Below, one piece after another: positions 17,619 through 41,645 of a stretch of DNA of 64,000 nt (position 1 is the first letter of the stretch; each line of letters starts with the position of its first letter). The DNA lies in assembly GCA_021414245.1 (NCBI GenBank), contig JAIOOU010000007.1:62001-126000 (forward strand), in the 5' to 3' direction. The notes under the pieces were generated by a model. It saw nothing but the letters and a program-made list of their open reading frames with translations. It searched no databases and was not told where the DNA came from. The DNA is from Chloroflexota bacterium. Lineage in GTDB: Bacteria; Chloroflexota; Anaerolineae; Anaerolineales; Villigracilaceae. The position numbers were made by a program, and so were the translations under genes.

Positions 17619-18041
17619 CTCAGGTCGGTTGGGCAGTCGCGGTTCCGCATTGTCGGGATCGAGGAAAGTCCGCACTCCATGGAGCACGGCGTCGGATAGC
17701 AACCGGGGCGGGGATAGCGTCGAGAGGCGTGAACCTGCCGGACAAGGGCCACAGAAACAAACAGCCCCGCATCCGAAAGGATGCCGGGGTCATGGTGAAA
17801 AGGTGGTGTAAGAGACCACCGGCGTTTGCAGTAATGCAGGCGGCCAGGTAACCCCCGCCGGGAGCAAGGCCAAGCAGGGGCGAAATCGTCTTCGGACGAT
17901 GGGAGACTGCTCGTCTCCGCATAGCCCCGGGTAGGCTGCAACGAGCAACGCGGTGACGCGTTGCCCAGAGAGATGACTGCACAGATGGATCGCTCGAAAG
18001 GGTGTCCATTGGACAGAATGCGGCTTATAGACCGGCCTGAG
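17619..18041 (+). ncRNA. rnpB: RNase P RNA (bacterial type A)
   Basis: The catalytic RNA that matures tRNA 5' ends. Its hallmarks are all present in order: gaggaaagtccgcactcc (CR-I) near 17660, the ggtggtgtaagagaccaccg segment near 17800-17820, and acagaatgcggcttatag near 18013-18030 (CR-V). The 5' segment 17619-17629 pairs with 18031-18041 to close P1 with one G-U pair, which fixes both ends within a few bases. The length of about 423 nt is normal for type A. Reading frames within this stretch are not genes. Confidence 0.96.
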
Positions 18042-18070
18042 GGTCCTATACGCCAGTCTTCAAATTTATC

Positions 18071-39063: not shown

Positions 39064-40185
39064 ATGAAAAAACTTACATTACATATCATTGCAACACTGA
39101 TCATCCTGTCCCTTGCGCTTTCCGCCTGCGGGACCCAGCCGCCAGCTGCCGCTGTCTCTGAAAACGTGGTCTCCACAAATGAAGTGGTTGCTGAAGGCCG
39201 TCTGGAACCCATTCACGCCACGAGCCTTTCCTTCCAGGCCCGCGGTGTGGTCGAAAAAGTATTGGTTAAAGCCGGAGACACCGTCAAGCAGGGCGATGTT
39301 CTGGTGCGCCTCGCAAATGCGGGTGGGGCTGAGGCGCAGCTGGTCATTGCTCAAAACGCGTATGATTCCCTCCTTCGCATGGAAAATGGTGACCGGGCGA
39401 AACTCTGGCAGGTCTACATGGACGCGCAGATTGCGCGTGCCGCTGCCGAAAAGAAATGGGAGGACGTGAATGTCGATACCATCGAGGACAATATTGAGGA
39501 CGACAAGGCCGCAGTCGAGGATCGTCAGCAGGACCTGAAGGATGCCCAGGAGGAATTTGATAAATATAAGGACCTGGACAAGGATAATGCCAAGCGCAAA
39601 ACCGCAAAGGATGACCTTGAAAACGCCCAGGAGGATTTGAATCAGGCGATCCGCGATCTGGAAGCCACCATGCGGGATCGTGATGAATTCAAGGCTGCCT
39701 ACGATGCTGCGCTCGGTGCGGAAGCGGAAGCCAAATATCAATATGAGATCAGTCTCGATGGTCCGAACGCCGATCAGCTTTCCATGGCCAGGGCCAATCT
39801 TGAGGCTGCGAAGGACGCACTTTCCAGTTACGTATTGACCGCTCCGTTTGACGGTATCGTGGCCGAGGTCAATGTAAAAGTGGGTGAACAGGTTGGCACA
39901 GACACCCGCGCAGTCAGTGTCGCCGATTTCAGCTCGTGGATCGTGGAGACCACGGATGTCACCGAGCTGGAAGTGGTGAAATTAAGCGCCGGTCAAAAGG
40001 TCTCACTGGTACCCGATGCCCTGCCGGGCCTGACTCTCAAGGGAACGATCACGGACATCAGCCAGGCTTATACCCAGCAGGGTGGAGATATTCTGTACAC
40101 CGTAAAAGTGCGGATTGAAAACCCCGATCCCGCATTGCGCTGGGGCATGACCGTTGAGGCCACGTTTTTGGATGCGAGCCAGTAA
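39064..40185 (+). CDS. HlyD/MacA-like adaptor lipoprotein
   Basis: A 373-residue membrane-fusion-type adaptor. It has lipobox LALSACGTQ. A lipoyl-like beta half (residues 45-90, with GVVEKVLVKAGDTVKQGDVL) is followed by a long helical hairpin (about 110-235, rich in Glu, Asp, Lys and Gln), the second lipoyl half (APFDGIVAEVNVKVGEQVG) and a beta-barrel. This order matches MacA/HlyD. It partners the FtsX permease upstream. Monoderm bacteria use such adaptors without an outer-membrane channel, for example in lipid or bacteriocin export (family knowledge). Confidence 0.92.
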   Translation: MKKLTLHIIATLIILSLALSACGTQPPAAAVSENVVSTNEVVAEGRLEPIHATSLSFQARGVVEKVLVKAGDTVKQGDVLVRLANAGGAEAQLVIAQNAYDSLLRMENGDRAKLWQVYMDAQIARAAAEKKWEDVNVDTIEDNIEDDKAAVEDRQQDLKDAQEEFDKYKDLDKDNAKRKTAKDDLENAQEDLNQAIRDLEATMRDRDEFKAAYDAALGAEAEAKYQYEISLDGPNADQLSMARANLEAAKDALSSYVLTAPFDGIVAEVNVKVGEQVGTDTRAVSVADFSSWIVETTDVTELEVVKLSAGQKVSLVPDALPGLTLKGTITDISQAYTQQGGDILYTVKVRIENPDPALRWGMTVEATFLDASQ

Positions 40186-40214
40186 GCCTGTGTTTTCATA
40201 GAACATCTGTGTGA

Positions 40215-40243
40215 TTGAAAACAAAAATAAAAAGTGCAATAAT
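40215..40243 (+). promoter_or_regulatory. candidate promoter of the riboswitch array
   Basis: TTGAAA (40215-40220), 17-nt spacer and AATAAT (40238-40243), 10 nt before the first aptamer. It lies 30 nt after the adaptor stop. A moderate match only. Confidence 0.5.
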
Positions 40244-40252
40244 AAAATTGCT

Positions 40253-40337
40253 CCGAGAAAGAGCAAAACCGGGCAAACCCGGTGACGCAAAGCCATGGGC
40301 CTAAAGCTGAACTGAGTCAAGGCCGCCAGGCTGCCGA
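40253..40337 (+). promoter_or_regulatory. c-di-GMP-I (GEMM) type riboswitch aptamer 1 of 3
   Basis: The GEMM core is present: GAGCAAAACC at 40261, a stem with loop (CCGGG/CCCGG), GACGCAAAG (40284-40292), CCATGGGCCTA and a closing segment ending GGCTGCCGA. It matches the family order GCAAA-hairpin-GACGCAAAGCC-GGG-CUA-hairpin-GCCGA. The position matching G20 of the V. cholerae Vc2 aptamer is A (40262), by eye alignment, while A18 is kept. Unit length is 81 nt to the next CCGA. Confidence 0.85.
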
Positions 40338-40424
40338 CAAAAGCAAAACCGCCAAAAGACGGCGACGCAAAGCCAGAGCGTCTAAAATCACAAATCTTGT
40401 GGTCAGGACCGACCGGCTTTCCGA
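40334..40424 (+). promoter_or_regulatory. c-di-GMP-I (GEMM) type riboswitch aptamer 2 of 3
   Basis: The core repeats: AAGCAAAACC at 40341, a short irregular stem (CCG/CGG), GACGCAAAG (40364-40372), CCAGAGCGTCTA, a stem CACAA/TTGTG, GACC and the end TTTCCGA. The first hairpin has lost its compact tetraloop. The G20-equivalent is A (40342). This is the most diverged of the three units. Confidence 0.78.
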
Positions 40425-40509
40425 AAGGCAAAATCAGGGAAACCTGGTGACGCAAAGTCATGGGTCTACGGTCATCTTATTTTTTTGGCCATGATTGCCA
40501 GACTGCCGA
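40421..40509 (+). promoter_or_regulatory. c-di-GMP-I (GEMM) type riboswitch aptamer 3 of 3
   Basis: The most canonical unit: AAAGGCAAAATC at 40424, the stem ATCAGG/CCTGGT around a GAAA tetraloop, GACGCAAAG (40449-40457), TCATGGGTCTACGG, a stem GGTCAT/ATGATT and the end GACTGCCGAA. The G20-equivalent is G (40427), as expected for c-di-GMP. A terminator hairpin begins 17 nt downstream. Confidence 0.87.
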
Positions 40510-40525
40510 AGAGCAAATCTTTTCC

Positions 40526-40559
40526 CAGGGATGACCGCATGTTGTGTCATCCCTGTTTT
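40526..40559 (+). terminator. terminator downstream of the riboswitch array
   Basis: CAGGGATGAC (40526-40535) pairs perfectly with 40546-40555 around a 10-nt loop, followed by TTTTA. It could be the expression platform of aptamer 3 or simply the end of a regulatory RNA. Confidence 0.82.
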
Positions 40560-40564
40560 AATAG

Positions 40565-40604
40565 ACCGCCGGTTCAAGCTTAACCGAAAGCTGGCCGGCG
40601 GTTT
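40565..40604 (+). terminator. second hairpin before ruvB, terminator-like
   Basis: ACCGCCGG (40565-40572) pairs with CCGGCGGT (40595-40602), with an inner 5-bp AGCTT/AAGCT stem. TTTATTGTT follows. It insulates ruvB from upstream transcription. Confidence 0.7.
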
Positions 40605-40607
40605 ATT

Positions 40608-40615
40608 GTTATAAT
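40608..40615 (+). promoter_or_regulatory. -10 element of ruvB (leaderless start)
   Basis: TGTTATAAT (an extended -10, hexamer 40610-40615) is followed by exactly 7 nt (cgccctc) and the ATG of ruvB. The spacer has no ribosome-binding site. Confidence 0.6.
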
Positions 40616-40622
40616 CGCCCTC

Positions 40623-41645
40623 ATGAGCAAACCCCTCCGCCCCCTCGACCCCGAAGCCAAACCCGATGACCGCATCGACAATGCTCTTCGTCCCGAGAAA
40701 TTAAATGATCTGATCGGACAGGATCAGGTGAAGGAGAATCTATCCATTTTGATCGATGCTGCCCGCAAACGCGGCGAGGCTTTGGATCATGTTCTTTTTT
40801 ACGGACCCCCAGGACTGGGAAAAACAACACTCGCGCATGTGCTTGCCAACGAAATGGGAGTCAACGTCAAGGTTACGGCTGGACCGGTGATTGAGCGCGC
40901 AGGCGACCTGGCCGCGATCCTCACCAACCTGCGCGCCGGGGACGTGCTCTTCATCGATGAGGTCCACCGCCTGGGCCGCGCAGTGGAGGAAGTGCTTTAT
41001 CCCGCCATGGAGGATTTTGCGCTGGATATTGTCATCGGCAAGGGGCCTTCGGCCCGTTCGATTCGATTGAAGCTGCCGCGTTTTACCATTGTGGGTGCCA
41101 CGACCCGCCTTGCCCTGGTGACAGCCCCCTTGCGGGCGCGCTTCGGTGCGGTCTACCGTCTTGATTATTACGATCCCGCAGCCATGCAATCCATTGTGAC
41201 ACGGGCCGCAGGTATGTTAAAGGTGGAAGCTGAAAAGGATGGCATCATGGAAATGGCGCGCCGTGCGCGCGGTACGCCGCGCGTGGCCTTGCGTTTGCTG
41301 CGGCGCGTGCGTGACTTTGCCCAGGTCCGCGCGAACGGCGTGATTACGAAGAATGTTGCCAAGGAAGCGCTGGACCTGCTGCAGGTCGATCCGCTCGGCC
41401 TGGATGATGTGGACCGCCGCGTACTGCGCACCATTATTGAAAAATACAACGGCGGACCGGTTGGCTTGAACACCATCGCCGCCTCCATCAGCGAGGAACA
41501 GGATACGATCATGGATGTGGTCGAGCCGTATCTTTTGCAGCTTGGTTTTCTGGATCGTACCCCCCAGGGCCGTGTCGCCACAAAGTCCGCGTATGAACAT
41601 TTGGGATATGCGTACACCGAGCAGGGGCAGGCGCGTTTGTTATAA
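40623..41645 (+). CDS. ruvB: Holliday junction branch-migration ATPase RuvB
   Basis: A 340-residue AAA+ motor. It has [19 protein letters not shown], Walker [12 protein letters not shown], Walker B FIDEVHRL, sensor 1 FTIVGATTR, arginine finger in TAPLRARFG and a winged-helix C-terminal domain with [12 protein letters not shown]. The length is normal. ruvA and ruvC are not in this window. An apparent leaderless promoter sits between the hairpins and the ATG. It is first in a run of co-directional genes including queA. Confidence 0.97.

Follow-up and report, generated by a model that had tools for sequence, protein, structure and literature searches.

Three back-to-back aptamers of the c-di-GMP-I (GEMM-I) riboswitch class occupy a single intergenic gap in the window, the whole 64,000-nucleotide stretch of DNA analysed here. 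In related genomes the same three aptamers recur in a conserved build, with no conserved next gene and no pairing between aptamer and terminator. This suggests that they form a small RNA which is conserved and self-contained, and not a switch leading a gene. The reading that we favour, with about as much confidence as doubt, is that of a free-standing noncoding RNA that binds cyclic dinucleotides and likely serves as a stable reservoir or buffer of c-di-GMP, and not as a switch in cis.

Three GEMM-I aptamers in one intergenic region

The gap between the end of an HlyD-type gene at 40185 and the start of ruvB at 40623 is taken up by three GEMM-I units, all on the forward strand. Unit 1 (40253–40333, 81 nt) has the GEMM-I fold, an A at position 20 (A20) and a CAAA loop, and matches the Rfam c-di-GMP-I model (RF01051) with 72.2 bits at 40252–40338. 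Unit 3 (40421–40505, 85 nt) is canonical, with G20, a GAAA loop and 74.0 bits at 40417–40510. Unit 2, between them (40334–40420, 87 nt), is divergent, with A20, an AAAA loop and an altered internal loop in P2; in a search of the whole genome it scores 43.6 bits (E 4.5e-7, 40332–40424), and all three units exceed the RF01051 gathering cut-off of 35 bits. In cmscan unit 2 falls below the gathering list, as a trimmed 19.8-bit match whose flanks overlap the neighbouring units, and against model R1 it reaches 100.8 bits, unit 2 itself being among the sequences used to build R1. The initial annotation had proposed three units with exactly these lengths, and the covariance search, which could have returned none or only one of them, returns all three.

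Adjacent units have one CCGA motif in common at each of the two joints. The intercalating base A47 of the GNCGCAAAG-type core, described as important in c-di-GMP-I aptamers (PMC9049102), is present in all three units of the window and in 158 of the 159 units of 53 aligned arrays, the exception being a G in unit 2 of one array. A chance origin of the triple is excluded, because the array recurs in 54 genomes, that of the window included. In two loci (L124 and L134) unit 1 resembles unit 3 in sequence, as though there had been copying from one unit to another. The same genome has two further GEMM aptamers, both single, and elsewhere in the window a bacterial RNase P class A RNA is found on the forward strand at 17621–18043 (234 bits).

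In the cmscan alignments all model pairs are standard in unit 3, and all but one in unit 1. The fold of unit 2 is also kept, with P2 partly swapped for an internal loop and a changed tetraloop; over 12 sequences 95% of 240 cells are paired and 6 of 20 pairs are changed on both sides, and shifted registers give at most 46% paired cells. Over the whole array, 46 of the 68 consensus pairs of the three aptamers are changed in a compensatory way in one sequence or more. When each unit is folded alone and ligand-free, the model's fold is recovered for unit 1 (z -2.19) and in part for unit 2 (z -1.73), and the minimum of unit 3 differs from the model (z -0.72). The apparent P1 of every aptamer is CG/CG, and adjacent units may therefore compete for the CCGA joint that they share.

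The array is conserved within one family

The covariance model used to search relatives was built on the middle unit, from 12 sequences. One high-scoring compact triple per genome is found in 41 of the 57 genomes of the genus, at 84.7 bits or more, and the next best matches, which are ordinary aptamers, reach at most 77.5. Among the genus genomes with a completeness of 90% or more and a contamination of 5% or less, 26 of 32 have the array. With the middle-unit model 16 of the 57 gave no array, though GGDEF domains are encoded in all 57. The family, with 152 genomes searched, adds 13 further arrays, and 8 of its 26 genera have matches at E 1e-13; the weaker of these matches overlap ordinary aptamers in score, and their status as triples was settled by reading the sequences.

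Beyond the family no triple stood out by score in a sample of 396 genomes of the class, taken with stricter filters and ten candidates per genome. An exact compact-pair pattern occurs in 15 of 400 genomes of the phylum, 5 of them in the array's own family; in the other 10 the places listed are by eye unrelated repeats, and the pattern is insensitive, missing for example G021, G025 and G052, whose arrays differ in their core letters. Tandems of the genus spaced by 158–216 nt were considered as triples with a missed middle unit; among those listed they are aptamer-terminator-aptamer pairs instead. Tandems of this kind recur in the genus (L116–L155, for example L120 and L130), and several of them precede genes whose starts share ATGGCATCCAG.

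Exactly three cores are present in each of the 53 arrays that were aligned (one of the 54, G019, has its 5' end cut off and was omitted). Their common build is a promoter-like sequence, three CCGA-joined aptamers, a short helix joining the ends and a hairpin. Over 40 genus genomes the column identity averages 88% in the array (267 columns) versus 42% past the hairpin (10 columns).

Promoter-like region, closing helix and hairpin

The region upstream of unit 1 (40199–40243) is promoter-like, with TAGAACA at 40199–40205, a candidate -35 element TTGAAA at 40215–40220 and an extended -10 element, TGCAATAAT, ending at 40243. In a promoter scan of the window it has 10 of 12 matches with a spacer of 17; one such site against a mean of 0.6 in shuffled sequence is weak when taken alone. 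The motifs are kept in an alignment of 12 loci (L006 is cut off before the promoter). In the 53 arrays with flanking sequence TAGAAC is present 49 times and NATAAT 47 times; TTGAA is found in all 53, but as a loose pattern anywhere within 95 nt. Judged from the -10 element, the transcript probably starts near 40249–40250.

The putative closing helix P0 would pair the 5' end of this transcript (40248–40253, core GCUC at 40250–40253) with the sequence right after unit 3 (40511–40516, core GAGC at 40511–40514). Including its CG/CG extension, P0 is 95.3% paired over the 53 arrays. Its predicted probability has a mean of 0.64 in 49 arrays and a value of 0.52 for the window, and RNAalifold predicts the CG/CG part only. 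In the MAFFT alignment, which loses the register at P0 for the four most divergent arrays, no pair of the helix is changed on both sides. Compensations appear when these four, three of them from one genus, are registered by hand: the core GCUC/GAGC becomes GCAC/GUGC in G527, G533 and G534, and ACUCG/CGAGU in G496. Shuffled sequences gave a pairing at least as long in 1442 (G527), 18 (G533), 62 (G534) and 235 (G496) of 4000 cases, so that each compensation, taken singly, argues weakly to moderately for the helix.

Downstream, a terminator-like hairpin, CAGGGATGAC...GTCATCCCTG plus TTTT, is located at 40526–40559 (z -3.57). Six of its nine pairs are changed on both sides and 97.7% of the cells are paired, and in the predicted ensemble its mean probability is 0.99 and its lowest 0.88 (49 arrays, the four out-of-register ones dropped). 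A simple terminator scan misses the hairpin of the window, whose loop is longer and whose T-run is shorter than the rule of the scan, and in many relatives the T-tract is short, often TTTG; read-through is therefore possible. Before ruvB comes another strong hairpin (40560–40607, z -5.08), which lies outside the conserved RNA. It abuts the TATAAT of ruvB, and by eye a similar inverted repeat is present in some relatives.

Neighbouring genes and control in cis

What follows the array varies among the 54 genomes: ruvB in 32, an MBOAT gene in 8, another gene on the same strand in 6, a gene on the opposite strand in 6 and the end of the contig in 2. The six other same-strand genes are response-regulator/BcsQ-like (4), an OmpR-type regulator and an ABC1-kinase, and the six on the opposite strand are DnaJ-domain (2), molybdopterin-binding (2), adenylosuccinate synthetase and a 112-aa ORF without a Pfam match. 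These counts were corrected by hand for ORF artefacts (G036, antisense of ruvB; G518, ruvB; G037 and G538, a short opposite-strand ORF dropped; G002, by Pfam), the raw script giving 30 ruvB, 7 MBOAT and 9 on the opposite strand. In every group one gene or more was named by Pfam and the rest by BLAST cluster, with G518 and G036 named from their translations. No gene is conserved behind the array among the 54.

MBOAT acyltransferases and regulators like BcsQ would make plausible targets of c-di-GMP. With a terminator-like hairpin after unit 3 and a same-strand next gene in 46 of 54 arrays, one could thus picture a cis-acting riboswitch whose three aptamers govern the hairpin as a terminator, and hence ruvB or whichever gene comes next. 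We consider this improbable, as the next genes vary, being on the opposite strand in 6 of 54, and ruvB seems to have a promoter of its own. Its TATAAT is at 40610–40615 on the forward strand, 7 nt before the ATG, and in all 36 of the RuvB ORFs read, of 37, a TATAAT is followed by the start codon within 14 nt. A TATAAT so few bases before the start codon, here (40610–40623) and in the relatives, suggests that the ruvB mRNA is nearly leaderless.

The ordinary riboswitches of the clade provide a second argument against cis control. There, base pairing joins the aptamer's 3' end to the 5' half of the terminator, and in 36 of 40 cases it reaches -10 kcal/mol or lower. The median is -17.6 kcal/mol over 41, a set that includes one mis-sorted triple (L210) and that remained after 17 of 58 had been dropped for lack of a hairpin followed by four or more T within seven bases. 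The triples, which did not pass through this T filter, lack the pairing, with a median of -5.6 kcal/mol and values of -10 or lower in 2 of 53; an expression platform of the pairing type, competing with the 3' end of the aptamer, is thus not found in them. An antiterminator was also considered for the window, in which GGUCAUC of the unit 3 P3 would pair with GAUGACC in the 5' strand of the hairpin, and was rejected, since by eye it is not generally kept in relatives. With variable next genes, a TATAAT belonging to ruvB and no aptamer-terminator pairing, control of ruvB, the next gene in the window, was dropped. The initial annotation had suggested that three stacked sensors could respond steeply or to several inputs. 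As the response of a controlled gene this is not supported: the array has a single hairpin, unpaired with the aptamer, and no conserved gene behind it.

On the other side of the array, HlyD is immediately upstream and on the same strand in most members of the genus. The array could then be a 3' UTR element that ends or stabilises the mRNA of an HlyD/MacB transporter operon. That explanation is very improbable, given the promoter-like sequence of the array itself, an upstream gene from another cluster in G387 (IMP dehydrogenase by Pfam), G325 and G523, and an upstream called ORF on the other strand in G527. Although the neighbours have changed, the promoter-like sequence, the closing helix and the hairpin have been kept, a pattern that speaks for selection acting on the RNA.

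Differences between the units and the choice of ligand

Position 20 reads A, A and G in units 1, 2 and 3 of the window and of 33 of the 53 arrays. Unit 1 has A in 41 arrays and G in 9 (the remaining three are by eye two A and one G), unit 2 has A in 51, G in 1 and C in 1, and unit 3 has G in 39, C in 10 and A in 4. The remaining GEMM cores of the loci that were retrieved, counted by a regular-expression scan from which three T hits resembling coding sequence were excluded, have G in 44, A in 14 and C in 12 of 70; C20 thus also occurs in ordinary GEMM cores, including L130, L132, L135 and L138. The P1b tetraloop is GAAA in 23, 16 and 50 of the 53 arrays for units 1, 2 and 3, respectively.

In a Geobacter riboswitch, an A to G change at position 20 switched the selectivity from cGAMP to c-di-GMP (PMC6456294). 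As position 20 differs by unit, the sites of the array may therefore differ in ligand or affinity, and a multi-input behaviour in the sense of ligands is conceivable. The cGAMP-selective GEMM-Ib riboswitches of Geobacter have A20, as do units 1 and 2 in most arrays, and are described as single or tandem cis switches, unlike the array (PMC6456294). In the window, units 1 and 2 have this A and unit 3 does not.

The enzymes of the genome bear on which ligand is available. The specificity site has Asp, and not Ser, in all 13 readable of its 17 GGDEF domains, and a search for a SMODS cyclase gave no match. We take this specificity site of GGDEF domains to be the mark that tells Hypr enzymes apart. 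A D226S change is listed for WspR (PMC6456294). With no cGAMP synthase among the 13 of 17 readable domains and no SMODS match, the enzymes give no support to cGAMP as the ligand of units 1 and 2. Weaker binding of c-di-GMP by these two units may therefore be considered as likely as binding of cGAMP.

Comparison with known systems

The closest precedent, the merRNA of Bdellovibrio bacteriovorus, is 445 nt long, includes a c-di-GMP riboswitch and was proposed as a store of c-di-GMP (PMC3627812). Both merRNA (PMC3627812) and the array are noncoding, carry c-di-GMP riboswitch aptamers and have no conserved ORF downstream; for the array, the commonest next gene is ruvB (32 of 54), but with its own TATAAT. 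merRNA is described as having a riboswitch, and no conservation was found outside Bdellovibrio (PMC3627812), whereas the array has three fused aptamers and an end-closing helix and is present in 8 genera of one Anaerolineae family.

Triplets of c-di-GMP-I aptamers as such are already known. A survey lists 12 of them and 347 doublets (PMC9481103), which makes the remark of the initial annotation that triples are rare a fair one; they are not new, as Bc3-5 of B. thuringiensis, a triple-tandem c-di-GMP-I riboswitch, has been tested (PMC4759541). Bc3-5 also has three GEMM-I aptamers per RNA, described as three independent elements, each with terminator action, in the 5' UTR of cspABCDE (PMC4759541). 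The array, in contrast, has one hairpin, shared joints and no fixed gene. The glycine dual-aptamer riboswitch, which the survey also lists (PMC9481103), likewise combines several aptamers in a compact RNA; it differs in ligand and fold and has an expression platform acting on a gene. The unusual part is the compact stand-alone build, for which no report was found in open-licence papers; arrays of this kind could be among the 12 triplets of the survey.

A possible function of the RNA

In the stand-alone reading, an RNA of about 0.31 kb would be transcribed from its own promoter and consist of the three CCGA-joined aptamers, closed by P0 and ended by a constitutive terminator hairpin. Its 5' end would be held in P0 and its 3' end in the hairpin, as expected of a stable RNA. 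Each molecule could bind up to three ligands and so act as a store or buffer of c-di-GMP. Unit 3, with G20 and the GAAA loop, would be the high-affinity site for c-di-GMP; units 1 and 2, with mostly A20 and often an AAAA loop, would be weaker or differently selective sites. A sponge RNA must be abundant. The evidence favours a stand-alone RNA, for which buffering of c-di-GMP would be the simplest function and a role in trans the main rival.

In the latter case, binding of a cyclic dinucleotide would alter the exposure of a segment that pairs with an mRNA or binds a protein. The stand-alone build also fits this, and two segments are possible binding sites: the P3 hairpin of unit 1, GCUGAACUGAGC, which lies outside the core aptamer and is conserved in the genus, and a conserved U-rich linker before the hairpin. 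Trans-acting riboswitches have also been mentioned elsewhere (PMC3627812). Beyond the genus, however, the P3 hairpin of unit 1 is by eye kept in only part of the arrays, and we regard a ligand-gated RNA in trans as a possible but tentative reading. It can also be speculated, although we find it rather unlikely, that the arrays form a family of signalling RNAs whose three aptamers differ from the outset in ligand or affinity (A20, A20, G20), with P0 tying them into a ring and with shared, mutually exclusive joints between them. Together the aptamers would then count cyclic dinucleotides, or compare them, and would act in trans.

Aptamers are usually regarded as components of mRNAs. In this case, an RNA that is conserved and single-copy appears to consist almost wholly of three second-messenger aptamers, around which the neighbouring genes have changed, and such an RNA may itself soak up or read out the signal. 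Should the array buffer c-di-GMP, it would join merRNA as a second case, and an RNA with three sites would allow the idea of an RNA sponge to be tested. A difference in ligand between the A20 and the G20 units would make the array a natural multi-input RNA sensor.
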